This document shows, piece after piece, positions 33,375-48,655 of a stretch of DNA of 64,000 nucleotides (position 1 is the first letter of the stretch; every line of letters starts with the position of its first letter). The position numbers and the translations under genes are program-made. The notes beneath the pieces are model-generated. The model saw only the letters and a program-made list of their open reading frames with translations, was not told where the DNA came from and ran no database searches. The stretch comes from Zhongshania aquimaris. Its GTDB lineage: Bacteria > Pseudomonadota > Gammaproteobacteria > Pseudomonadales > Spongiibacteraceae. Location of the stretch: contig NZ_JAHWDQ010000001.1 in assembly GCF_019312595.1 (NCBI RefSeq), forward strand, positions 434,001 to 498,000, written 5' to 3'.

Positions 33375-33956
33375 CTATTCAGACTCCTGCGACACTACGC
33401 GTGCGTAGGAAACCATACCTTGCCCGTTATTAAATGCCGCACGGTCCGTATGTTTACGCAAATATGCCTCGAAACGCTTACGCGCCTCAGCGTCATTATT
33501 TAGCAAAGGACCGGCAGGTGACGCTTGCGCCTGAGCACTTACCGCAACACCGCCCACTGTGGCAGATGATGTCTGAGCAGGATAGACACGACCACTGACA
33601 CCATTATTATCGGCAACCATTTGTGATGAGCCACCAAACATATTGCTACCAAGCGAGCCAACAACTACTACTGCGGCAACACTAGCTGCAATAGCGAGCC
33701 CTGAAACCGCCTGCTTCCAGCCTGTTCCCACACTATTAATGAGCTCATCGCCCTCAATCTCTGCCATCACTCGAGCTGAGATATCCCAATTCATATAGGG
33801 ACTAACCTCATTCTTAAGTATTTGCTGAGATCGGTGCAAATCAGCCCATTCTGTGCGAATTGCGTGTTCATCGGCACTCAAAATACGACGAAGCTCAAGC
33901 TCGCTGGCTTCGCCATCCATCAATGCAGATAGGGATTCTCTGACGGTATCGTTCAT
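33375..33956 (-). CDS. rseA: Anti-sigma-E factor RseA/MucA
   Basis: RseA holds sigma-E at the inner membrane and is cut by DegS and RseP under envelope stress. The 193-residue protein has a cytosolic anti-sigma domain ([19 protein letters not shown] to about residue 80), one TM helix around VSGLAIAASVAAVVVVG (about 86-102), and a periplasmic tail rich in Gln, Ala and Ser. It overlaps rpoE by 4 nt and is coupled to it. Confidence 0.94.
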   Translation of the reverse strand: MNDTVRESLSALMDGEASELELRRILSADEHAIRTEWADLHRSQQILKNEVSPYMNWDISARVMAEIEGDELINSVGTGWKQAVSGLAIAASVAAVVVVGSLGSNMFGGSSQMVADNNGVSGRVYPAQTSSATVGGVAVSAQAQASPAGPLLNNDAEARKRFEAYLRKHTDRAAFNNGQGMVSYARVVSQESE

Positions 33957-34549
33957 ACTTCCACCTCTTCGCCACTTATCTGGGCTTTAACTCGCAGATC
34001 GACTGCCTCTCGGGCGCGGAAAATACGCGACCGAACCGTACCGACCGGACAATCCATTACCGATGCAATATCTTCATAACTCAGGCCATCGAACTCACGC
34101 AGGCTAAGTGCCGATCGTAAATCCTCTGGTAGAGCTTTTATAGCGTCCTGTACCACTTTCTTCAACTCCGCGCCGTACAGTTGATTTTCCGGGGTTTCAA
34201 TATCTTTCAGACCAGATGGTCCCTCAAAATATTCCGCGTCCGCAACATCAACATCTACACCGGGTGGACGACGATTTCGTGCTACAAGATAATTCTTTGC
34301 AGTATTAATCGCTATCCGGTAAAGCCACGTATAAAAAGCACTATCACCCCGAAACTTAGGCAGGGCACGATACGCTTTTATAAACGCCTCCTGCGCCACA
34401 TCCTGAATTTCGTCGTTATCTTTCACGTAACGTGAAATTAAGCCGAAGATTTTGTGCTGATACTTGAGCACGAGCATATCAAATGCGCGTTTATCGCCTT
34501 TTTGTACCCGCTCAACTAACTGCTGATCGGTTTGCTTAAGCTCGGCCAT
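33953..34549 (-). CDS. rpoE: RNA polymerase sigma factor RpoE/AlgU
   Basis: This ECF sigma factor drives the envelope-stress response. The 198-residue protein starts [21 protein letters not shown] and has region 2 ([34 protein letters not shown] region, about residues 28-62) and region 4 with [14 protein letters not shown] (about 148-161). It heads rpoE-rseA-rseB-rseC, and a sigma-E-type promoter upstream (34587-34613) predicts autoregulation. GTGAGG precedes the ATG at 4 nt. Confidence 0.97.
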
Positions 34550-34586
34550 ATTGCCTCACCGCAAGCCATTCGGCAGCATCATTTGA

Positions 34587-34613
34587 GTAGACCGCCGAGG
34601 CTAAAAGAAGTTC
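34587..34613 (-). promoter_or_regulatory. Sigma-E/AlgU-type promoter of rpoE
   Basis: On the minus strand GAACTT (34608-34613) is followed after 16 bp by TCTAC (34587-34591), close to the RpoE/AlgU consensus GAACTT-N16/17-TCTGA. The predicted start would be about 30 nt before the rpoE ATG. This suggests positive autoregulation. Confidence 0.7.
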
Positions 34614-34673
34614 TGTCATCGTATCCCTTTTCAGCGTGTAAACCGCTTTATGCGGTGACAACGCAGGCAAATA

Positions 34674-34702
34674 TTGGTAAGGCGACTTTCTATCAGTATA
34701 CT
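34674..34702 (+). promoter_or_regulatory. Sigma70-like promoter of nadB
   Basis: TTGGTA (34674-34679) and TATACT (34697-34702) are 17 bp apart, about 60 nt before the nadB ATG. A GCGGC/GCCGC inverted repeat (about 34722-34739) lies in the predicted leader. Confidence 0.6.
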
Positions 34703-34765
34703 TTGCGCCAATTTAGATCCCGAGCGGCATATTATAGCCGCACTGCGGCAGGAGCAAATAACAAA

Positions 34766-36370
34766 ATGACCCACTACCATTCACATGATGTTCTCGTGAT
34801 AGGCAGCGGCGCCGCAGGTCTCACTTTAGCACTGCAGCTTGCCGATACCGCGCGCATTGCGGTAATAAGCAAAGGTGAGCTCAACGCCGGTTCCACCTAT
34901 TGGGCCCAAGGCGGTATTGCCGCTGTGCTTCACGACGGCGACACAATCGACGCTCACGTTGCAGACACGTTAGTCGCCGGCGCCCAACTCTGCCACGAAG
35001 ACAGTGTACGCTTTACCGTCAAAAACAGCAGCGACAGCATAAAATGGTTGCTATCACAGGGTGTGCAATTCAGTCGCTACGAACAAAGCAGCGAGACATT
35101 CCACCTCACTCGCGAAGGTGGCCATAGTCAACGCCGCATCATTCACGCAGCAGATGCCACCGGCCGCGAAGTGTCTGAAACCCTCACTAACCGCGCGCGT
35201 GAAAATGCCAACATTGAAATATTTACCCGTCACGTCGCAGTAGACCTAATTATCGCACAAGATCGCTGCCACGGCGCCTATGTGCTGAACAGAGACAGCG
35301 GCCACGTTGAATTGTTCCACGCAAAAGCCATAGTGTTAGCAACCGGAGGAGCGAACAAAGTCTATTTGTACACAAGCAACCCAGACGGCGCTAGCGGTGA
35401 TGGCATTGCGATGGCTTGGCGGGCCGGGTGCCGCGTAGCAAATATGGAGTTTAACCAATTTCATCCCACATGCTTGTATCACCCCAAAGCAAAGTCCTTT
35501 CTTATTACTGAAGCTATTCGGGGCGAAGGTGGCAGACTTATCTCAGCAAACGGCGAGCGTTTTATGTTCCGCTACGATGAACGCGGCGAACTAGCCCCCC
35601 GCGACGTCGTTGCCAGGGCCATCGACCACGAGATGAAACGTCTAGGTAGCGATTGCGTTTATCTCGACATCAGTCACAAGTCGCCTGAGTTTTTACTTGA
35701 GCACTTCCCCACTATTAAGGCGCGCTGCCTTGAATTAGGAATCGATATCACCCGTGAACCAATACCTGTGGTTCCTGCAGCGCACTATACCTGCGGCGGC
35801 GTAATAGTGGACCAGCACGGCAAAACCGATATTCCTAGCCTGTATGCGATTGGCGAGACCTCTTTCACAGGCTTGCATGGCGCCAACCGCCTCGCTAGTA
35901 ACTCTCTATTAGAATGCTTTGTCTATGGCACCTCGGCCGCGACTCATATAAGAGAACAGCTCGCGAACTTACCGGCGCCAAATATCGCACTACCCTGGGA
36001 TGAATCACAGGTAACTGATTCTGATGAAGACGTCGTCATTTCCCATAACTGGGATGAGTTACGCCGTTTTATGTGGGACTACGTCGGGATTGTGCGCACA
36101 AACAAACGTCTGCAACGCGCATTAAACAGAGCCGCCCTGCTTCAGCAGGAAATAGACGAGTATTATTCCAATTATAAAGTCAGCAACGATTTACTTGAAC
36201 TGCGAAACCTTGCCATGGTGGCCGAACTTATTATCCGCTCGGCGATGCAGCGCACTGAGAGCCGCGGTTTGCACTATACTCTCGACTATCCCGCCCAACT
36301 AGACAGTGCAGAAGACACTATATTGACGCCCATTAACTACAAACCAGGGGCTTATAATAGCTCGCTCTAA
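34766..36370 (+). CDS. nadB: L-aspartate oxidase
   Basis: NadB is a FAD enzyme that makes iminoaspartate for NAD synthesis. The 534-residue protein is read from ATG 34766 ([20 protein letters not shown]); the frame stays open for 78 more codons upstream, but that part overlaps rpoE and lacks family similarity. Motifs are the Rossmann VIGSGAAGL (about residues 10-18), [24 protein letters not shown] and FHPTCLYHP. The gene is convergent with ygfX, with a 4-nt overlap of stop codons. The rpoE/nadB divergence is standard in gammaproteobacteria. Confidence 0.96.
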
Positions 36371-36819
36371 GAAAGACGAGCAAAATTCGCGACTTGACGC
36401 AATTTCCGGTATTGCCCTGACCTTAGCTGGTCAGGCATTACCACTATAGAGCGGGACCGCCGATAACCCTGCGCGCGAAATCTTAATAGTACGGCGAACG
36501 GCAGCACAGTTGCATCGACGCAATCCACTGGTTGAACGACGATATCACCGCTGCGAACATCGCCGCGATAAATCCGCCACCGATTTTCAGAAAAGGCAAT
36601 TCGACTGACAGCCTGATCACCGAAAAAACAGGTATCGCGAAAAACGTAAAACGCCAGACTTAGGAGCAGAAGAAGCGTACCTATTGAGGCTATGAGCCAC
36701 GGTAAAGCGAGCCATGCACTAATCGCTACAAGCCCATGTAGACCGATAAAATATCCACACAAGTATCGTGACGACCTAAACTTAAGATCGAGGGGTTTTG
36801 GAGAACGTATTGATGTCAT
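36367..36819 (-). CDS. YgfX-like membrane protein
   Basis: This 150-residue protein follows sdhE directly (its start overlaps sdhE by 38 nt) and has two hydrophobic helices near residues 20-60, then a short soluble tail with Arg-rich segments, as in YgfX (CptA). In E. coli YgfX was reported as partner of the adjacent SdhE/YgfY and as a cytoskeleton-affecting toxin; the toxin role is disputed. The start is taken as ATG 36819; two TTG codons lie just upstream. Family assignment rests on position and topology more than on strong motifs. Confidence 0.65.
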
Positions 36820-37042
36820 CAACAATTATCGCCAGATCTCGATCTTCAGGTAGATGCCTACCTAAAAACCACTGAAACAATTCCGTGTCTTCGCACTCCA
36901 ATAAACGAATAAAGCGCTGTTGATTTTCGTCATCTAGCACCCGAAAACGATGCTCAACATAGGGCACCATCACCAAGTCTAACTCCAGCATGCCACGACG
37001 GCAGGCCCAGCAAATTCGCTTGAACTCGTTTTCCGAAACCAT
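36782..37042 (-). CDS. sdhE: FAD assembly factor SdhE
   Basis: SdhE helps covalent attachment of FAD to the succinate dehydrogenase flavoprotein. The 86-residue protein carries the RGxxE motif in ACRRGMLELD (residues 16-20), which is essential in the family. The start MVSENEFKRICW at 37042 matches the family; the frame opens 26 codons earlier but without similarity. It is the first gene of sdhE-ygfX and divergent from ygfZ. Confidence 0.94.
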   Translation of the reverse strand: MVSENEFKRICWACRRGMLELDLVMVPYVEHRFRVLDDENQQRFIRLLECEDTELFQWFLGRHLPEDRDLAIIVDDINTFSKTPRS

Positions 37043-38275: not shown

Positions 38276-39118
38276 TTAGATTCGCTTCAATACCAAACGT
38301 GTTCCCACATTCATTAATGGCACTAGTAAACGATCATAGCTCGCGGGGAACAAACGCTGAATAATATCTAGCAATCGCGCATCGCTGCCAATTAATACTC
38401 GCACCTTAGATTTGCGCATACCACGCATGATGACCGCCGCTGCTTTCTCTGGCGTCGTCGCCGCAATACTATTAAAAATTTCGGCTGTTTTAGCCACATC
38501 AGCTGCATTGCCGGTAATCGAGTTAAGATGTCGGCCATTATTTGCGATATTGGTTTTTATGCCCCCCGGATGCACTGTCACGACCTTCACCGCAGTGTCA
38601 CGCATGTCTTGGCGCAGGGATTCTGAATAACCTCTCACCGCAAATTTCGCGGCATTATAGGAAGATTGTGAGGGAACCGAAAGCAAACCGAACAAAGACG
38701 ATATATTCACCACACATGCTTCGGGACGATCAAGCAATTCAGGCAAAAACGCCTCTACGCCATTAATAACGCCCCAGTAATTCACGCCAAACAACCACTC
38801 CATTTGCTCGCGCGGCTGCTCCGCTGCGTGGCAGCTTAACGCCACACCGGCATTATTGATAATACCGTCAACCACTCCAAAATGGCTTTTCACAGCCTTT
38901 GCCCAAGCCTTCACAGCGGCATTATCGCTAACATCTAATTTTGATAGCAGTAGCTCAGACTCGCCACCATACTCTCGAAGTGCCTGTAAATTCCCCTCGA
39001 CAATATCGGAAGCGGCAACACGAGCACCTGCGGCTCGCAAACCAATCACTAGAGCTCGACCAATTCCAGATCCCGCGCCCGTTACGGCGATGACTTTATT
39101 GTTAAAATTTTTCACCAC
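38276..39118 (-). CDS. SDR family oxidoreductase (SadH-like)
   Basis: The 280-residue protein has the cofactor motif TGAGSGIGRAL (residues 14-24), NNAG, and the catalytic Ser and YNAAK pair (SSLFGLLSVPSQSSYNAAKFA). It resembles short-chain dehydrogenases encoded with monooxygenases and esterases, such as mycobacterial SadH in the mymA operon. It is the last gene of the four-gene operon 42525-38276, 12 nt after the monooxygenase gene. Its likely role is oxidation of an alcohol to the ketone substrate of the neighbouring monooxygenase, or the reverse. The C-terminus is hydrophobic, which may allow membrane contact. Confidence 0.88.
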   Translation of the reverse strand: MVKNFNNKVIAVTGAGSGIGRALVIGLRAAGARVAASDIVEGNLQALREYGGESELLLSKLDVSDNAAVKAWAKAVKSHFGVVDGIINNAGVALSCHAAEQPREQMEWLFGVNYWGVINGVEAFLPELLDRPEACVVNISSLFGLLSVPSQSSYNAAKFAVRGYSESLRQDMRDTAVKVVTVHPGGIKTNIANNGRHLNSITGNAADVAKTAEIFNSIAATTPEKAAAVIMRGMRKSKVRVLIGSDARLLDIIQRLFPASYDRLLVPLMNVGTRLVLKRI

Positions 39119-40669: not shown

Positions 40670-41671
40670 CTATATCACTCTCGTTCCAGCACACCAGAAA
40701 TCACTTAGCACTCTGGCTGTTAAGGCCGGCTCTTCTATCATGGGTAAGTGCCCAACGGCGGGTAAGATCATCGCCTTTGCATCAGAAATTTGGTCGCAAA
40801 ACTGATCGGCACAGCTCACATCCAAGACCTGATCAGAATCCCCCCACAGCACTAATGTTGGGGCGGTAATCTTGTTCAAGTTCAAAAATGTATCTTTTAA
40901 AGAGTCGACTAAGTGCGAAAAAATAAAATCATTTACGCGCTTGCGATGACTCATCGCTCCCGCGAGAAAAAAGCTTAAAATCATGCCAATGAAACGTTGA
41001 CGCCGGTGTAAGGCAATGGCAAAAACCAGCCATGTATCGCGCGGCGACGACGGAGCGAGGTAGTTCTTACCCGCCGCTAAACCGCTTTCCAACTGACTAA
41101 GATGCTTTCCGGGCACGCCAGCCGAATTCATTAAGCAAAGCGTTTCGACAAGCTGCGGATGTCTCGCCGCTAGCTGCGCCGCAATTGCGCCGCCCATCGA
41201 GCTACCGGCGAAATGCGCTTTCTCTATCCCCAAGCCTTTCAGCCATGACGCAACCCGGTCCGCCTGGGCCGCCATTCGGTAATCCGCATCGGGGTGAAAA
41301 TCACTATCACCAAAACCCGCCAAGTCCGGTACTAATAAGTAACAGTCTTTGCGCAGCCTTGCCGCCAAATAGCTCCAGTTCTCTTTGCTAGAACCAAAAC
41401 CATGTAGCAAAACAACCACGCGACCCGCACTATTTCCGCCTGCCCAATAACATATATTGTGGTCGTCAACCTTGGCCACACGGCGCTTTAAGCCCGCCTG
41501 CAGGCTCATTAAGGGTTGCAGACGCTGCCACAAACTCCCGCTAGGCTGCCACCTAGCGAGTGCCGCTTTATCAATATCGGCCAATGGCGTTGCCAAATAC
41601 CGATCTCGCATTGCGTCCAGCTCGGTCAAAATCGCAGCATTTTCAGCTACGATTCCATTTACCGCATTCAT
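40670..41671 (-). CDS. Alpha/beta hydrolase (Ser-type, esterase-like)
   Basis: The 333-residue hydrolase has HGFGSSKENW as oxyanion loop (about residues 89-98), a nucleophile Ser in AGSSMGGAIA (about 156-165), a triad Asp in LWGDSDQVLD and a triad His in VGHLPMIEEP. It is predicted to hydrolyse an ester or lactone, which fits cleavage of the product of the neighbouring monooxygenase. There is no signal peptide, so it is cytosolic. Its start overlaps the diiron-like gene by 4 nt and its stop lies 3 nt before the BVMO gene. Confidence 0.87.
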   Translation of the reverse strand: MNAVNGIVAENAAILTELDAMRDRYLATPLADIDKAALARWQPSGSLWQRLQPLMSLQAGLKRRVAKVDDHNICYWAGGNSAGRVVVLLHGFGSSKENWSYLAARLRKDCYLLVPDLAGFGDSDFHPDADYRMAAQADRVASWLKGLGIEKAHFAGSSMGGAIAAQLAARHPQLVETLCLMNSAGVPGKHLSQLESGLAAGKNYLAPSSPRDTWLVFAIALHRRQRFIGMILSFFLAGAMSHRKRVNDFIFSHLVDSLKDTFLNLNKITAPTLVLWGDSDQVLDVSCADQFCDQISDAKAMILPAVGHLPMIEEPALTARVLSDFWCAGTRVI

Positions 41672-42525
41672 GCAGCAGCGCCAACGGCTGAATCGCCATA
41701 CGCCGTCACTTCATCAACTAGCGAGTCGACTTCCGCCAAGTACTGGGCATTGTCATGATCCCAAGGATGGAATCCTGGTTTAAAGTAATCCAACCAGTCA
41801 GGAATCGTTCTGCGCAGCATTCCTGGCGATCCCCACAAGAAATTCATCACCTTAATCCAACCCATCACGTTGAAAAGCTGACCTTCACGTCTCACCAAGC
41901 CAATATGGAATGGAATAACCATTAGCCAGAAAATACTCGTCGCAGTAATCAACGCGAAACAGCGATGTAAATAGCCAATCAATCCGCCACCCAAAACCTC
42001 CTGATATACGTCATAGGCAACCGCTTTGTGCTCGGTTTCTTCAAGTGCGTGCCACTTCCACAATGCACCATAGCGGGGCTCTGCGCCCTCCAAGCTGCGA
42101 GGCTCACTCAGCACCATATTGGCTAAAATCGCCGTTAAGTGCTCTAAGGCAATCGTCCCTGCTAACTGGGCAGACTTAGGTGAAAATCGAGTAAGGAACT
42201 TCAAAAGGCGAACAACAATACGGCCGTAACGATCAGCCGGCATACCTTTTTCGACCAAGGCATCGTTGTATTCTTCATGCTCGCGGCCGTGCATTGCCTC
42301 TTGGCCAATAAACCCGCGTACAGACTCTTTTAATTCGGGATCATGAATCCGATCGCGATAGTGGCGTACGCTATCAATGAAAAAGCGCTCACCATCTGGA
42401 AAGAAAATCGACAAGGCATTAAAGAAGTGAGTAATGTGCGCACCGCCGGCGTGCCAATCGCCAATGCGGTCTTTTGGCAAATGAAACTCAAGATTACGGC
42501 GTACCGGTTGAACTATCGTTTTCAT
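41668..42525 (-). CDS. PF10118 'metal-dependent hydrolase' family protein with diiron ligand pattern
   Basis: The 285-residue protein belongs to the family named predicted metal-dependent hydrolase (PF10118). I read the ligands E46, E76-x2-H79, E128 and E163-x2-H166, which is the E/EXXH/E/EXXH spacing of ferritin-like carboxylate-bridged diiron proteins. So it may bind two irons and use O2, rather than hydrolyse. It is the first gene of the operon, with RBS AAGGAGATG, and its promoter carries the shared palindrome. Related genes in actinobacteria and gammaproteobacteria occur beside SDR and monooxygenase genes. Function not demonstrated. Confidence 0.82.
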   Translation of the reverse strand: MKTIVQPVRRNLEFHLPKDRIGDWHAGGAHITHFFNALSIFFPDGERFFIDSVRHYRDRIHDPELKESVRGFIGQEAMHGREHEEYNDALVEKGMPADRYGRIVVRLLKFLTRFSPKSAQLAGTIALEHLTAILANMVLSEPRSLEGAEPRYGALWKWHALEETEHKAVAYDVYQEVLGGGLIGYLHRCFALITATSIFWLMVIPFHIGLVRREGQLFNVMGWIKVMNFLWGSPGMLRRTIPDWLDYFKPGFHPWDHDNAQYLAEVDSLVDEVTAYGDSAVGAAA

Positions 42526-42553
42526 AAAGCATCTCCTTATGAATCATTTTATT

Positions 42554-42577
42554 ATGTAACACCAGGTGATGTAACAT
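42554..42577. promoter_or_regulatory. 24-bp palindromic operator, copy 1
   Basis: Half-sites ATGTAACACCAG and GTGATGTAACAT (24 bp; half-sites TGTNACAYCA and TGATGNNACA) flank the centre. It overlaps the -10 box of the diiron/hydrolase/BVMO/SDR operon and the leader after it. A near-identical copy lies upstream of the TonB receptor gene (46900-46923). Confidence 0.75.
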
Positions 42578-42602
42578 TAATCTTGACATCAATTAATGTC
42601 AA
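42574..42602 (-). promoter_or_regulatory. Promoter of the diiron-hydrolase-BVMO-SDR operon
   Basis: TTGACA (42597-42602, minus strand) and TAATGT (42574-42579) are 17 bp apart. A palindrome (42582-42603, 10 of 11 pairs) also covers the -35 and spacer. Matches in the promoter of the TonB gene extend over TTGACAT, GATTAATGT, CATCA, CTG and ACATA at the same spacing. Confidence 0.75.
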
Positions 42603-42603
42603 G
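42582..42603. promoter_or_regulatory. Second palindrome over -35 and spacer
   Basis: CTTGACATCAA and TTAATGTCAAG are inverted copies (10 of 11 pairs match) covering the -35 and spacer of the operon promoter. It is not repeated at the TonB promoter, so it could bind a separate regulator or a second dimer. Confidence 0.55.
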
Positions 42604-42625
42604 TACAATCGAATGAATATTTACC

Positions 42626-43579
42626 CTAAGTTCTTGCAACGGCTGAATCGGCCTGAAACGCCCCGTCAGCTATGAAATCCGCCACAAGGCGCGCCAACTC
42701 CTTAGGCCTGCTTAGCGGCAACCAATGTCCACCCTCGATGTGTCGAATACAGAGATTTGGCGCCCACTGCGACATTCCGTCGTATAAATTTTTGCCAAGA
42801 AAGCGATCATTCATTGGAATAACAAGTTGTACCGGCACAACACTGCTGCGCCGCCGCGGCGCGCGAAAACGAGGAAGGCAATTCGCCCTGTAAAGCTCAA
42901 TCCCATTGATCCCGTCACGCTTGCGCTGAGCGCTTGTCACTAGGGCGTGCTCATCAATATTTACACCTTCCACAAAGCGCATTAATCGACGCCAATTTCG
43001 ACCCAGAGCAACCCGCCAAAGCATGGGTGCCAACAAGGGAAAATGAAAAAACCAGATATACCAGGAGCGAAAAATTTGATGAATAACTAATTTAGTACTG
43101 CCACTCTCGCCCCAACACTGGCGAAACCAATAGCCAACATGATCCAGACAGGGACCGGAGATAGAGGTATACGATAAGATTTTGTGCTGGGAGTTCGGTG
43201 AGCATACAGACTCCCAACTTTGCACAGAGCCCCAGTCATGACCGACAAGATGAAACTGGGGACGACTACAAAACTGTGCAGTAACCGCTGCTAAATCCGC
43301 TTGCAATAACGCGAGTGAATAGCCATTGCGATTGGAAGGCGCCGACGAAAGCCCGGCCCCCCGCACGTCGTACCTAATAATATAAAAGTCATCTACCAGG
43401 TAATCTACCAACAGGTCCCAAACAGAGTTGTTATCTGGGTAGCCATGTACCAACACTATATTGGGCTTACTCGACTGCCCCTGACAATAAACTGCTATGC
43501 GCACGTCACCGGAGTAACAAAATTGCGGGGCTGGCCGCCTTGCATCTATCCGAGCTGCATCAGAGCCAGCAACATCCAT
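42626..43579 (-). CDS. Alpha/beta hydrolase, epoxide hydrolase-like (Asp nucleophile)
   Basis: The 317-residue protein has the oxyanion motif HGYPDNNSVW (about residues 44-53), a nucleophile Asp in VGHDWGS (about 113-119) instead of Ser, triad His in GGHWLPL, and Asp in MNDRFLG. GHDWG with HGxP is typical of epoxide hydrolases and haloalkane dehalogenases. It is the last gene of the TonB-START-hydrolase operon and stops 23 bp before the next operon's -35 box. Its cytosolic target may be an epoxide or ester of the same compound. Confidence 0.86.
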   Translation of the reverse strand: MDVAGSDAARIDARRPAPQFCYSGDVRIAVYCQGQSSKPNIVLVHGYPDNNSVWDLLVDYLVDDFYIIRYDVRGAGLSSAPSNRNGYSLALLQADLAAVTAQFCSRPQFHLVGHDWGSVQSWESVCSPNSQHKILSYTSISGPCLDHVGYWFRQCWGESGSTKLVIHQIFRSWYIWFFHFPLLAPMLWRVALGRNWRRLMRFVEGVNIDEHALVTSAQRKRDGINGIELYRANCLPRFRAPRRRSSVVPVQLVIPMNDRFLGKNLYDGMSQWAPNLCIRHIEGGHWLPLSRPKELARLVADFIADGAFQADSAVART

Positions 43580-43621
43580 TTTTATCTCTCGCCGAATGTT
43601 TGAATCAGGGGACTTCGGGTC

Positions 43622-44287
43622 TTAGAAGGGATTAAAGTTTGCGTATTCCGGCAACACAACTCGATTGCGCATTGCCTTTAGTGTTTCAAATGGATTATCT
43701 ACTATCATGGCATTTACCAGGCCTGAGGGCAGCGCGCCAACCGGGTTCAAATGCAATTGAAACACTACCTTGGTCTGTGCATCACTTAGTGGCGTCAACT
43801 CAAAAAAGCCCTCTACTTCCTCTACCCTTACAGCATCCGATTTCTTAGGTAGGGCCGCTTTAGCTGACTCTGGTAGCGCCTGCACATCCACACCTGTCAG
43901 CTTCACTAGAGTAATTCGGCTAACTGGATCTTGAGATATTTCATTGCGTAGAATCATGTCTCGATCCGCCGCCGGCCAGGGAAAATCATTCTGCAAATAC
44001 TGATAGCGATCCAATAAACTCGCCTTGTATAAAAGTTTTGGATTTTTACAATTAAACATCCAGTGAACAAAACCATTGGTGTCATCCAGCAAGGCCATCA
44101 CTTGGTTCAACTCGGCATTAATAATGGCTTCACCACGAAACTCTTTATAATTAGAACCCTCAACAGCCCGCGTATAAACTTGGATTCCGTCCTTGTCTTT
44201 TTCTAGCTGCCACTCGCCTGCACAAAGCGAGACACTCACCAACAGCATGGCAATTAACGCGAGGCACTTATTCCCTAACGTTTTCAT
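43622..44287 (-). CDS. Periplasmic START domain lipid-binding protein
   Basis: START domains bind sterols and other hydrophobic ligands. The 221-residue protein has a Sec signal peptide (MKTLGNKCLALIAMLLVSVSLCAG) and then a single START domain (WQLEKDKDGIQVYTRAVEGSNYKEFRGE region to about residue 215, with FPWPAADRDMILRN). It probably carries a hydrophobic molecule through the periplasm. It sits between the TonB receptor and the epoxide-hydrolase-like gene in one operon (93 and 42 nt gaps), which supports cooperation in uptake. Confidence 0.87.
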   Translation of the reverse strand: MKTLGNKCLALIAMLLVSVSLCAGEWQLEKDKDGIQVYTRAVEGSNYKEFRGEAIINAELNQVMALLDDTNGFVHWMFNCKNPKLLYKASLLDRYQYLQNDFPWPAADRDMILRNEISQDPVSRITLVKLTGVDVQALPESAKAALPKKSDAVRVEEVEGFFELTPLSDAQTKVVFQLHLNPVGALPSGLVNAMIVDNPFETLKAMRNRVVLPEYANFNPF

Positions 44288-44380
44288 CTTGCATCTCCAG
44301 CATTCAAATCAATCGCATGCCTAAGCATCGTCATCACAAGTTACCACCAACAAGCTGTTAAGCTTTTGGCGGAAATCAGG

Positions 44381-46855
44381 CTACATCCGGTACGTGAATT
44401 GCATCGCTATAGAGCGTGGCGGCTCAACGAATGCAGTGTGGCTGGTGGCACCAAATATGGTTTTCGATAAGGGGGTATCAGCGGCATACACCACAACCAC
44501 TTTATCCGTTAAGTTCTTCCCCACCAGCGCCAACTCCCACTGTTTATCGATCGGACCTATGCCAATACGGCCATTCACCTTAACAAATCCATCTTGCTCG
44601 ACACGTTCATCAAGATTAGAAGATGGGTTGTAATTATCTGTGAATACAAAATCTAAGCCCATACCAATACCCATGGTTGGGCTAATTGGACGAACATAGC
44701 CAATTAAGAAAGTACCTGACCAGTCAGCGACATACTGATTGCTCTGACCGGTGTAATCGCAGTACAAACCATCATCAGATGTTGGCACCTGATCCTGCTT
44801 ACACTGGCCATTCTCAAAGTCAGTGAATTCAAAATCTAAAATCGCAAGGGCGCCGCCCAAGCTGAAGTAATCGGTAATCTGCCAGCGCCCATCCATTTCT
44901 ATGCCCATGGTGATAGCTTCTTTGGCGTTGCCGACGTTAAATCCTAATGTGCCATCAAAAAGACTAATCTGAAGATCGTTATACTGGGTGTAGAAAGCGG
45001 CGATGTTAAATTCAGCTGCGCCGTCCAACAAACCGGTTTTCAGGCCTAGTTCAAGACTGGTCGCCTCCTCCTCTTCATACTCAAAGGTACCAATCAGAAC
45101 CTGCTGATTTGAGATCGCAGCATTCGGATTCCGCGGCGTAGGATCGGCACTAGGTGACATATTTGACCGCGCATCAAAGCCACCGGCTTTAACACCCTTA
45201 GTGGCAGTGAAGTAGGCCATACCCTCATCTGAGTAATCCCACTGAACATTCAACAAAGGAGAAAAGGACTTTTCGGTACGCTTGCCCTTCAAGTCGTGAC
45301 GCTCAGCCGAGAACGTAATAGCCGCTACCGTATCCACTTCACCGATGGGCAATACATTGCCCTCTAAATCAGCAAATTCCAACTTGCGACTACCGGTTTT
45401 CTGCTCTAAGGTTCCGCGCCCGCCTAGGGTCAAACGAAGACTGTCGCCAAGATGGAAAGTTGTTTGCAAAAATGCAGAGAAAATATTCGACGTACTCAAG
45501 AATTGTCGAGGAGCTGTAATATCGGCCACAGCATTACCGGCATCACCAATACCGGCTATCTCCTCAGGACCACCACCAAGCTGCAGTGGGTCGATATCAC
45601 CTCGAGCACCACCTTCTGTTAAGTCTGCTGCATTCAGTAACTGCACAACTGTCGCCGAGTCTTGAATTAATTTGTCACGAAAATCAAGTTCGTTGCGCTG
45701 CATATACAGACCACCGATATATTCTACATCTTGATCTGCCGGCGAAACCCAACGAAATTCCTGACTGTATTGAGTGTAATCTTCACCCAAAGCCAACTTA
45801 AACAATTCAGCAGCAGTTGCATCACAGTCACAAAGGTCACTGTACGTGTAATGTAAATAACCTGTGATTGCCGTGAACTCATGACCACTATCAGTGACTC
45901 TAGTAATATTTGTCGTTAAATTAATAGTGTCATTATTGCTGAAATCGCCATTTGAGGTGCGTTTAAAATCTTGAAAGTTATTCAGCACAGAGTCGTCGAT
46001 ATTTACGTTAACGACACCAGGAAATTGTGTGTTATTTAGTATTTCGGCTTCTGTCTTACCTGTAAAAAGAAACACATCTGAAGTCGATGGTTCATCGTTA
46101 ACAATTTCGGCTTGGCGACCCAAGCTATCAAACTTGCCAGTTTCAATTTTCGCTAGCAACGTTGTCCTATCATCTATCTCCCAAGCTGCTTTTAAACGAA
46201 AAGTCGCCTGATCATATTGAGGTTCATCACGGTCCAAAAATAAATTTTCGACAAAGCCGCCGTATTCGCGCACACGAGCAGAAAAGCGCAGGCCCAAAGT
46301 ATCCGTGACAGGACCAGACAGCATAACATCGGCAACTTTCTCGTCGTACTTCGGTTCATATAAAGTCGAGAACAAGGCTTCGAAATAATCTGAGGGATTT
46401 GCTGTGATAAGATTTACCGCACCGGCAATACTGTTTTTACCATGGAGAATATTCTGCGGCCCACGCAATACTTCCACCCGCGCCAAATCCAAAAACGGCG
46501 CCCGAGCCAATTGGGCACGACCATAGTAAATACCGTCGACATACATCCCCACCGACTGCTCAAACCCCTGATTCATCCCAGTACCGATACCACGAATAAA
46601 TATGTCCGTACTAATCCCACTCTCGGTCACCGTGAGGTTAGGCACGTAGGCTTGTAAATCTTCCATGCGATTAATACCAGCTTCCATCATTTTCTCGCCG
46701 CCAATGGCGCTGACAGAAACCGGAACATCTTGGAGACTCTGGGTTCTGTGTTGAGCAGTAACTACCACCTCCTCTAACATTGCAGCCATTGCCCCCGATG
46801 AGGCAAAAGAAAGTAGAAAGAGGAAATTCGAAACGGATGCTTTAGGACTAACCAT
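44381..46855 (-). CDS. TonB-dependent outer-membrane receptor
   Basis: The 824-residue receptor has a signal peptide (MVSPKASVSNFLFLLSFASSGAMA), a TonB-box-like EEVVVTAQHR, a plug domain (about residues 40-160) with RVEVLRGPQNILHGKNSIAGAVNL, and a barrel of average length. The C-terminus ends TYRM, so the usual terminal aromatic residue is not at the very end. It heads an operon with START and epoxide-hydrolase-like genes and is driven by a promoter matching that of the BVMO operon. The ligand is probably a hydrophobic carbon source rather than a siderophore, an inference from context only. Confidence 0.9.
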   Translation of the reverse strand: MVSPKASVSNFLFLLSFASSGAMAAMLEEVVVTAQHRTQSLQDVPVSVSAIGGEKMMEAGINRMEDLQAYVPNLTVTESGISTDIFIRGIGTGMNQGFEQSVGMYVDGIYYGRAQLARAPFLDLARVEVLRGPQNILHGKNSIAGAVNLITANPSDYFEALFSTLYEPKYDEKVADVMLSGPVTDTLGLRFSARVREYGGFVENLFLDRDEPQYDQATFRLKAAWEIDDRTTLLAKIETGKFDSLGRQAEIVNDEPSTSDVFLFTGKTEAEILNNTQFPGVVNVNIDDSVLNNFQDFKRTSNGDFSNNDTINLTTNITRVTDSGHEFTAITGYLHYTYSDLCDCDATAAELFKLALGEDYTQYSQEFRWVSPADQDVEYIGGLYMQRNELDFRDKLIQDSATVVQLLNAADLTEGGARGDIDPLQLGGGPEEIAGIGDAGNAVADITAPRQFLSTSNIFSAFLQTTFHLGDSLRLTLGGRGTLEQKTGSRKLEFADLEGNVLPIGEVDTVAAITFSAERHDLKGKRTEKSFSPLLNVQWDYSDEGMAYFTATKGVKAGGFDARSNMSPSADPTPRNPNAAISNQQVLIGTFEYEEEEATSLELGLKTGLLDGAAEFNIAAFYTQYNDLQISLFDGTLGFNVGNAKEAITMGIEMDGRWQITDYFSLGGALAILDFEFTDFENGQCKQDQVPTSDDGLYCDYTGQSNQYVADWSGTFLIGYVRPISPTMGIGMGLDFVFTDNYNPSSNLDERVEQDGFVKVNGRIGIGPIDKQWELALVGKNLTDKVVVVYAADTPLSKTIFGATSHTAFVEPPRSIAMQFTYRM

Positions 46856-46899
46856 AATTCAAGACCTACAATTGCTTTATTGTTATACTACACGCCACT

Positions 46900-46923
46900 A
46901 TGTGACATCAGATGATGAGACAT
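46900..46923. promoter_or_regulatory. 24-bp palindromic operator, copy 2
   Basis: Half-sites ATGTGACATCAG and ATGATGAGACAT (centre inverted repeat of TGTNNCATCA) match copy 1 at 42554-42577 in most positions. It overlaps the -10 of the TonB receptor promoter on the minus strand and lies 197 bp before the MerR gene. Confidence 0.75.
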
Positions 46924-46948
46924 TAATCGCAGCAAGGCTGTATGTCAA
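46920..46948 (-). promoter_or_regulatory. Promoter of the TonB receptor operon
   Basis: Minus-strand TTGACA (46943-46948) and TAATGT (46920-46925) are separated by 17 bp, the same hexamers and spacing as the BVMO operon promoter, and enter the palindrome. The start lies about 70 nt before the TonB ATG. Confidence 0.75.
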
Positions 46949-47045: not shown

Positions 47046-47119
47046 AAATAGCCGAGTAGAACCAGTCTTCTATTACTGGCTGCACTTAATAAGAGAGGGC
47101 GCGACGCGCAGTGAAGAGC

Positions 47120-47965
47120 ATGAAATTCCCAGAAGAAACAATCAGCAACATGGCACAGCTACTCCCGCAAACGAATTTAGCCAACGACACAGCGAACACC
47201 GAACACCAACGCAACTACTCGGTTGAAGAACTGGCCATCGCCGCCAACACCACCGTTAGGAATATTCGCGCCTATCAAGATCGTGGCGTTCTTCCCCCCC
47301 CAGCCTTACAGGGGCGAAAAGGGATCTATAACAACGTCCATCTGTCCCGACTGCGCCTGATTGCCAACTTACTTGACCGCGGCTACACCCTTTCGAGCAT
47401 CAAAGAGTTAATTTCTGCGCTGGAAGAAGGTGTTGGTCTTAGCGAAGTCTTAGGTATTGAATCAGCACTGAACTCGCCGTGGACAAACGAGGCGCCGACA
47501 ACAATTGCCATGACCGAACTGGTTAAAATGTTCGGGACAAAACTAACCCCATCGGCGGTAAAAACGGCTCATGATTTAGGTTTGTTCAGTATTTCAGGCA
47601 CTCAATTGAGGGTCTCAAGTATGAATACTCTGAAGGTGTCTGAAGAATTATGTGCGACCGGCATTCCGTTAGATGAGCTACTCGATATATTGCGAATGAT
47701 GCGTGGCAACGTTCAACGGGTCGCCAATGAATTCGTGAAACTGGTTTCGCGACATGTATTAGAGCCTTACGCGGAACAGAAATTACCGCCGCCAGAAGAG
47801 CTACCCAAAATTGCGGAACTCATTTGGAAGCTGCGACCGCTAGCCGAAAAAGTGGTAGATGCAGAACTAGGCAGGGCGATGGAGATCGCCGCAAGTCAAT
47901 TCTTAGCGGACACCTTAGAATCGATTATGGACGACCTGCCAAAAGACTCGCCTTACAAGCCCTAG
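47120..47965 (+). CDS. MerR-family transcriptional regulator
   Basis: The protein has 281 residues from ATG 47120 (alternatives GTG 47111 or ATG 47150 remain possible; no strong RBS decides). The winged HTH is YSVEELAIAANTTVRNIRAYQDRG (about residues 33-56) with HLSRLRLIANLLDRGYTLSSIKELI (about 74-98). The rest is a long C-terminal domain without cysteine clusters, so it is an organic-ligand rather than a metal-sensing type. It is divergent from the TonB operon; the shared palindromes lie in between and at the BVMO operon, which makes it the best candidate regulator. Confidence 0.87.
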   Translation: MKFPEETISNMAQLLPQTNLANDTANTEHQRNYSVEELAIAANTTVRNIRAYQDRGVLPPPALQGRKGIYNNVHLSRLRLIANLLDRGYTLSSIKELISALEEGVGLSEVLGIESALNSPWTNEAPTTIAMTELVKMFGTKLTPSAVKTAHDLGLFSISGTQLRVSSMNTLKVSEELCATGIPLDELLDILRMMRGNVQRVANEFVKLVSRHVLEPYAEQKLPPPEELPKIAELIWKLRPLAEKVVDAELGRAMEIAASQFLADTLESIMDDLPKDSPYKP

Positions 47966-47983: not shown

Positions 47984-48655
47984 CTAAAGCCGCCAATCTA
48001 GCGGCGATTGGCCACGCGCTTGCAGATATGCATTTGCTTTAGAGAAATGACCACAACCCAAAAAACCGCGATGCGCTGACAGAGGTGATGGGTGAGGCGC
48101 CTCTAAAACCAAATGGCGCTGTCGATCGATTGACGCACCCTTCTTTTGCGCATGGCTTCCCCAGAGTAAAAACACCACACCTTCTCGACCGGCATTTAAT
48201 CGCTGAATTATCACGTCGGAAAATTTCTCCCAACCCCGCCCTTGATGTGAGCCGGCAGCGCCATCCTCTACTGTCAACACGCTATTGAGCAGCAATACTC
48301 CGCGCTCGGCCCACGGCTGCAAGCAACCATGCTTAGGGATATCAATGCCCAAGTCAGCATGCAACTCTTTATAAATATTTCGCAAAGACGGAGGAATTTT
48401 TACCTCTGGTGGCACCGAAAAACTAAGGCCATGCGCTTGGCCAAAACCGTGATAGGGGTCCTGCCCTAGTATCACTACTTTTACGTCATTAAAAGGTGTG
48501 TAATCCAGGGCAGAAAACCATTGCTCTAAGGGAGGATAAACCGCTGCGGATGAAGCTTTACGGCTTTCTATATATTGAAGCAAGTCTTGAAAATACGGCT
48601 GACTAAGCTGTTCGCCAATCTCGACCCTCCACGAGGGTTCTAACATTAATGCCAT
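47984..48655 (-). CDS. ung: Uracil-DNA glycosylase
   Basis: Ung removes uracil from DNA. The 223-residue protein has the catalytic loop [21 protein letters not shown] (with the active Asp, about residues 60-80) and the minor-groove loop [18 protein letters not shown]. The start ATG 48655 or 48646 (MLEPSWR) are both possible. The gene converges on the MerR gene with 18 bp between stops. It is a housekeeping gene without visible link to the neighbours. Confidence 0.96.

Follow-up and report, generated by a model that had tools for sequence, protein, structure and literature searches.

The 64,000-nucleotide stretch of the Zhongshania aquimaris genome analyzed here (contig NZ_JAHWDQ010000001.1, positions 434,001 to 498,000; referred to as the window) contains two neighboring minus-strand operons whose promoters each run into a 24-bp palindrome, which raises the question of whether the operons are controlled together, by which protein, and in which direction. 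Operon 1 encodes a TonB-dependent receptor (TBDR), a START-domain protein, and an alpha/beta hydrolase (ABH1); operon 2 encodes a PF10118 protein (MHyd), a second alpha/beta hydrolase (ABH2), a Baeyer-Villiger monooxygenase (BVMO), and a short-chain dehydrogenase (SDR), and a gene for a MerR-family regulator stands divergent to operon 1. These identities of the seven linked genes agree with those given in an earlier note on this DNA. Spacing within the operons ranges from a 4-base overlap to 93 bp, and the 100-bp gap between ABH1 and MHyd contains the second promoter. Taking the evidence as a whole, we consider it likely that a MerR-type repressor controls both operons, that the seven genes serve the uptake and oxidation of a hydrophobic compound, and that a ligand relieves the repression.

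A shared promoter and palindrome

The earlier note described two minus-strand promoters of the form TTGACAT, 13 bases, and GATTAATGT that run into 24-bp palindromes, with CATCA, CTG, and TGTNACATA common to both, and the sequence matches this description (Table 1). Its remark that the spacer is otherwise not conserved holds for the window pair and fails across species, as the 17-bp spacer at 42.6 kb is itself palindromic and in relatives forms a second, weaker operator over the -35 element. The palindrome pattern ATGTNNCATCANNTGATGNNACAT, allowed up to 3 mismatches, was found 2 times in the window against 0.09 expected from shuffles, and a joint 30-base promoter-plus-palindrome pattern, itself derived from the two window sites, was found 2 times against 0.00 expected. 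Generic scans returned 12 promoter-like sites (13.4 expected from shuffles) and 15 terminator-like sites (11.2 in shuffles; standard deviation, 3.6).

A scan of the whole genome (4.25 Mb) for shared sites, a check proposed with the original observation, recovered the two window palindromes, one exact and the other with 1 mismatch, along with a single additional place at 3 mismatches. A looser palindrome pattern occurred at 18 places, 16 of them with 3 mismatches and none besides the window pair at 2 or fewer, and a reversed-pattern control occurred at 8 places with up to 3 mismatches. At a stringency of 2 mismatches both operators are private to this locus, and a wider regulon in the same genome was rejected on the ground that no further site lies within that limit. 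The genes of one 3-mismatch place, L063, showed only weak likenesses to dehydrogenases.

Conservation in the family and sister genus

Among 145 genomes (that of Z. aquimaris included), sites with no more than 2 mismatches were present in 29, comprising 18 of 21 genomes of the family and 11 of 124 outside it. Two family genomes without such a site, G009 and G015, do carry sites detected by matrix (L087 and L088), and in G014 a full-length MerR, a PF10118 match at 1e-30, and an operator at 2 mismatches are jointly absent. Scoring matrices were made from 46 sites (45 distinct; 32 from the family and 14 from outside) hand-picked beside target genes. With the matrix of the 14 out-of-family sites, the region before the receptor scored at least 12 in every one of the 20 family loci and that before MHyd in 17 of them, while the upstream regions of START, ABH1, ABH2, BVMO, SDR, uracil-DNA glycosylase, and GcvT reached this limit, which was set after the scores were known, in 0 of 114 cases (top non-target score, 7.0). 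In 17 of the 20 loci the region before merR also scores 12 or more, by way of the site shared with the receptor. The scan of relatives put forward in the earlier note thus finds the operators recurring at both positions, and their conservation before the same target genes supports its proposal that the two neighboring operons form one regulon with a shared operator.

The gene cluster is syntenic across the family, and both operators are kept in synteny in genus 1. The three exceptions at MHyd are sister-genus loci (L046 to L048), where MHyd directly follows START and the internal site is gone; the block of the sister genus has no ABH1 and a single main operator, before the receptor. ABH1 is present in 5 of the 20 family loci. 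The second, weaker operator (offset -26 to -29, score above 6) was detected at 14 of 15 listed genus-1 MHyd promoters, the exception (L035) having a similar sequence nearer, outside the scanned offset range. At genus-1 TBDR promoters it was found in 0 of 14, and three sister-genus TBDR promoters scored weakly (6.7 to 7.1). A possible third half-site is marked by TG at +8/+9 in 30 of 32 family sites, and the same bases occur in the listed sites of groups f7 and f28.

Association of the operator with MerR

The divergent MerR, named in the earlier note as the nearest candidate regulator, gains from the comparison: it is the only DNA-binding regulator that recurs near the operator in the surveyed loci, and it co-occurs with the operator across genomes. 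Of the 21 family genomes, 20 encode a full-length orthologue (E < 1e-50), as do 13 of the 124 others. Among those 124, a palindrome with no more than 2 mismatches was present in 6 of 13 MerR-positive versus 5 of 111 MerR-negative genomes (one-sided Fisher p = 1.4e-4). With the full matrix, all 13 out-of-family MerR-positive genomes had a site scoring at least 14.9 near a target-type gene, compared with a highest score of 15.5 and a 99th percentile of 6.9 in 1,200 resampled controls, although 9 of these genomes had themselves given training sites (G112, G047, G118, and G054 had not). In G139 and G112 the distance between operator and merR is 0.5 and 2.3 Mb, respectively, so the link is not mere adjacency. 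The MerR-negative palindrome loci L060 and L061 (G087 and G141) held no gene like those of the window; the remaining MerR-negative palindromes are in G083, G089, and G093.

Upstream regions of PF10118 genes gave a further contrast: in MerR-negative genomes none of 20 (matches from 13 of the 19 such genomes with a match at E 1e-30) exceeded the 99th percentile of resampled sequence, versus 8 of 20 further PF10118 upstream regions scoring at least 11.9 in MerR-positive genomes (7 of 19 without training site L210), a result that is only suggestive because the two sets differ in identity to the window protein. The resampled controls were drawn from each sequence's own dinucleotides and are not exact shuffles.

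Spread beyond the family

A search of named genomes through MerR yielded 80 loci, including those of Spongiibacter, Litorivivens, Ketobacter, Solimonas, Salinisphaera, Nevskia, Hydrocarboniphaga, Alcanivorax, and Halovibrio. PF10118 was present in 57 of them. The receptor, and nearly always START, was limited to ten family loci, so that the family has added the uptake operon to a PF10118 core of wider occurrence. In loci L101 to L170, 33 of 58 PF10118 upstream regions scored above the 99th percentile and 23 of 58 above all 1,160 resampled sequences (leaving out L105, on the contig of a training locus, 32 and 22 of 57), counts that are not of independent events given the close pairs L101/L106, L103/L104, and L111/L116. 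Of the 23 top sites, 17 are no more than 51 bp from the aligned start of the gene and 6 are 71 to 120 bp away; for ABH1 in the same loci, 10 of 13 upstream regions scored above all controls. Proteins encoded within 6 kb of 20 out-of-family operators were most often PF10118 (19), MerR (14), SDR (10), and BVMO (7). Eight further recurring groups (hydrolase, acyl-CoA dehydrogenase, GGDEF/EAL, molybdopterin, DUF4382, or no family) contained no DNA-binding domain in one representative each; four smaller groups that overlap their genes were left out of this domain scan. As far as sequence can tell, the operator recurs before PF10118 genes in many Gammaproteobacteria.

Individual loci had features of their own. 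In group f28 (L076 to L078), with the operator before PF10118, a longer palindrome of about 42 bp is present, with arms CATTRTTTTATATTACAT and ATGTAACATAAAAYAATG in L076 and L077, and between species its R/Y position changes on both arms in concert. Beside MerR in L076 (5660 to 8083) are genes for a molybdopterin oxidoreductase and a DUF4382 protein, with relatives in L077 and L078 (oxidoreductase) and in L101 and L106; a reading of the 776- to 807-residue proteins beside MerR in L076 to L078 as receptors was rejected, the L076 protein being this oxidoreductase. In L089 and L090 (G016 and G017) there is a second MerR, 40 to 42% identical, with its own set of PF10118, SDR, BVMO, and ABH1, and operator-like sites precede a gene whose product has a Peptidase_M24 domain; in G016 (L089) this second MerR contains one in-frame stop.

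Promoter geometry and mode of control

In 30 of the 32 family sites TTGAC starts 24 or 25 bp before the palindrome, the two exceptions having TTTAC at other distances. It is kept in receptor promoters whose spacer holds no second palindrome, and so seems to be retained as a -35 element and not only as part of an operator. A 17-bp spacer would place the -10 (TAATGT or TATGTT-like) within the palindrome's left arm and the transcription start near the dyad center; the proposed MHyd hexamer TAATGT is weak (3 of 6), and the TBDR position reads TATGTT in several related species. Elsewhere the operator accompanies other promoters: in f7 a different one, TTGCCA/TTGATA-17-TACATT, ends 5 bp before it (L049 and L050; L052 has a similar layout with 18 bp), and in f43 (L055, L056, and L081) 19 bp separate the end of the operator from the start codon. 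This position over or just after unlike promoters argues for repression, the mode that the earlier note had drawn from an operator over the -10, and coverage of the presumed -10 and +1 by the operator also fits repression.

The same note was right that a 17-bp spacer is not the geometry of a MerR-activated promoter. According to PMC5045206, such promoters have the site center 7 to 8 bp from the -35, and spacers of 19 to 20 bp are given there and in PMC9909328; here the center lies about 31 bp from the TTGACA -35, and the spacer to the proposed -10 is 17 bp. Classical MerR activation does not fit this geometry and was rejected. In the mechanism that we propose, the MerR-family protein would bind the 24-bp palindrome as a dimer, cover the -10 and start site, and so repress both operons, until a hydrophobic ligand (substrate or intermediate, perhaps fatty-acid-like) on its C-terminal part lifts the block; the second operator, over the -35 of the catabolic operon, would perhaps allow tighter control.

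The alternative that survives best is that MerR binds the palindrome but activates through a downstream promoter, such as GTTACA-18-TAAAAT at 42575 to 42546, with the operator mostly in the spacer, as in classical MerR systems. The generic pattern scan does list this promoter, ACATAATA follows the operator in many relatives, and MerR proteins classically act from the spacer, as stated in PMC9909328. We nevertheless regard it as unlikely, given the conserved position of TTGAC upstream of the operator, a downstream -10 that by eye is not conserved in main-clade TBDR promoters, the 19 bp left before the start codon in f43, and a site center far from the 7 to 8 bp described for activators in PMC5045206.

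It is quite improbable that the palindrome is the binding site of some other regulator, such as a TetR-family protein encoded elsewhere, and that MerR is a conserved neighbor with other targets. TetR operators are commonly long palindromes at start sites, and in L058 (G084) the gene divergent at the operator encodes a TetR protein and not MerR. However, this TetR had no counterpart in the other 125 loci longer than 5 kb save a weak 27% match in L122, in a regulator survey that covered genes near operators and not those encoded far away, and the presence of MerR predicts that of the operator across genomes even at the distances seen in G139 and G112. That the promoter likeness stems from recent local duplication or chance and has no regulatory meaning is hardly credible: only two sites are present, 4.3 kb apart, but they are conserved in other genera and families, where the flanks have diverged and the target genes stay the same.

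Several observations besides the TetR gene of L058 weigh against a MerR repressor acting on both operons. The TonB receptor, START, and the receptor operator are common to family members only, so that receptor linkage is confined to the family, and 25 of the 58 PF10118 upstream regions in L101 to L170 had no clear site. The linkage to MerR is not independent, as 13 of 20 census loci and all 80 named loci were fetched via MerR, and the PF10118 proteins of MerR-negative genomes are mostly distant paralogues (42 to 48% identity for most), which weakens that control. The palindromes of L053 (G026), L054 (G068), and L057 (G084), 3 of the 11 sites with at most 2 mismatches in out-of-family MerR-positive genomes, adjoin no target-type gene, and neither does a third palindrome in G004 (L051), inside the family. 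The proposed -10 is weak and absent from the generic promoter listing. Finally, a possible second winged helix at residues 130 to 182 of MerR fits the secondary structure of a model with a mean pLDDT of 70, but the two domains showed no likeness when their profiles were compared, and an internal repeat of the MerR domain was rejected on this result.

The MerR protein and related regulators

The protein shares 95% identity with a protein from Zhongshania sp. BJYM1 and has the N-terminal MerR winged-helix DNA-binding domain of the family; domain searches with its C-terminal part gave no match to a metal-sensor family. It falls outside FtsR (NCBIfam NF050798), with a weak match over residues 48 to 238 of 23.5 bits against a cut-off of 150. 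Our alignment joined it to 30 of 35 MerR stretches, without L043, L044, L045, the duplicate L062, and L089 (in-frame stop). The classical activators MerR, CueR, CadR, and BmrR have the operator within a 19- to 20-bp spacer, whereas here it lies over the presumed -10/+1 of a 17-bp-spacer promoter. The second winged-helix-like segment predicted after the first recalls actinobacterial Rv1828/FtsR, which belongs to another phylum and has other targets. The C-terminal domain of Rv1828 is among the structural matches but aligned to the N-terminal domain of the window protein; Rv1828 is tabled beside "Fatty acids" in PMC9909328.

The regulation of AlmA described in PMC11784139 offers a likeness, in that a flavin monooxygenase gene for hydrophobic substrates is under control. 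There, AlmR of Alcanivorax is a repressor encoded near almA, and APR1 of Acinetobacter differs from the window protein in being an AraC/XylS-type activator. AlmR was rejected as the same regulator, since it is described with a predicted Ig-like domain, and a term search of that paper gave no mention of a palindrome.

A MerR/PF10118 operator regulon was not found described in the open-access PubMed Central literature searched, and by its sequence features it is a putative new regulon of the MerR type whose general kind is familiar. It consists of a putative operator, regulator, and target set, defined from sequence alone, that recurs in many Gammaproteobacteria, and the operator could serve as a biosensor once its inducer is known.

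The PF10118 protein and the proposed pathway

PF10118 is named "predicted metal-dependent hydrolase," and the regulon provides a regulatory handle on this family, whose accession is mentioned by one paper in the open-access PubMed Central literature searched. R2/AurF-like proteins combine a ferritin-like four-helix fold with E, ExxH, E, ExxH ligands. In an alignment of the window protein with 21 of 32 PF10118 stretches, E46, E76xxH79, E128, and E163xxH166 are invariant in all 22 rows, and the protein is predicted by its model to be an R2/AurF-like diiron protein. The R2-like, AurF, and CmlI diiron and Mn/Fe oxygenases are 8 to 15% identical to it among the matches listed, and a sequence search for solved relatives found none up to E = 1. 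The model and the gene company point to an oxygenase instead of a hydrolase. PF10118 is multiplied in G041, G047, G081, G126, and G142, with 10 to 12 matches at E 1e-30 each, which suggests several substrate-specific subfamilies.

Type I BVMOs carry the fingerprint FxGxxxHxxxW[PD] between two Rossmann motifs, and the window BVMO has FGGKVMHTAEWD at residue 162, with GAGFGG at 21 and GTGASA at 187. In the proposed pathway the TonB receptor and START protein would take up a hydrophobic compound, which the PF10118 diiron enzyme, dehydrogenase, BVMO, and two alpha/beta hydrolases would oxidize by hydroxylation and via ketone and ester to hydrolysis. Together, a diiron hydroxylase, dehydrogenase, BVMO, and esterase make up a subterminal oxidation, and the module probably acts in this way on a hydrophobic substrate, which may be an alkane, sterol, or terpenoid. 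In Thalassolituus oleivorans grown on n-C28, a BVMO, an esterase, and a TonB receptor were raised and an alcohol-ketone-ester route was proposed, with a specific subterminal hydroxylase not identified, according to PMC6304351; MerR and "metal-dependent hydrolase" are absent from that text. We offer as a doubtful extension that a Gammaproteobacteria-wide, lipid-sensing MerR repressor with two winged helices controls PF10118 proteins, which would be the soluble diiron hydroxylases so far missing from the first step in the subterminal oxidation of hydrophobic compounds that are long-chain or polycyclic.

Features of the module and neighboring genes

Table 1. Genes, operators, and promoter elements of the module, in window coordinates
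Feature	Position	Strand	Basis
TonB-dependent receptor (TBDR), 824 aa, first gene of operon 1	44381..46855	-	Pfam TonB_dep_Rec_b-barrel, Plug
START-domain protein, hydrophobic N-terminus	43622..44287	-	Pfam START 9e-6
ABH1, alpha/beta hydrolase, epoxide-hydrolase-like, GHDWG	42626..43579	-	Domain match, motif
MHyd, PF10118, first gene of operon 2, predicted R2/AurF-like diiron protein	41668..42525	-	PF10118 1.3e-90, modeled fold
ABH2, alpha/beta hydrolase (GSSMG)	40670..41671	-	Domain match, motif
Type I BVMO, 511 aa	39131..40666	-	Phenylacetone monooxygenase 7e-73; fingerprint
SDR, TGAGSGIG, YNAAK	38276..39118	-	Pfam adh_short 9e-46
MerR-family regulator, divergent, start 47111 GTG or 47120 ATG	47111..47965	+	Pfam MerR_1 4e-17
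Main operator O-TBDR, 24-bp palindrome ATGTCTCATCATCTGATGTCACAT	46900..46923	-	Score 25.8, matrix trained outside family
Main operator O-MHyd, 24-bp palindrome ATGTTACATCACCTGGTGTTACAT	42554..42577	-	Score 29.2, matrix trained outside family
Second, weaker operator, core TTGACATTAATTGATGTCAA, over -35, 27 bp upstream of O-MHyd	42581..42604	-	Score 12.4
Possible third half-site ATGATTCAT, downstream of O-MHyd palindrome	42539..42547	-	TG at +8/+9
-35 TTGACA, MHyd promoter	42597..42602	-	Fixed TTGAC-to-palindrome distance in family
Proposed -10 TAATGT, MHyd promoter, on operator left arm	42574..42579	-	Inferred from 17-bp spacing
-35 TTGACA, TBDR promoter	46943..46948	-	Sequence and family spacing
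Proposed -10 TAATGT, TBDR promoter, on operator left arm	46920..46925	-	Inferred from spacing

Beyond the module, window positions 36367 to 36825 match Pfam Cpta_toxin (a membrane toxin-antitoxin component), near genes for a sigma factor (33953 to 34549) and an FAD-binding flavoprotein (34532 to 36370). The uracil-DNA glycosylase gene (47984 to 48655) adjoins merR in the clade of the window and lies beyond SDR elsewhere in the genus, as compared with L032, L035, L038, L042, and L043; the block has therefore been rearranged relative to this gene.

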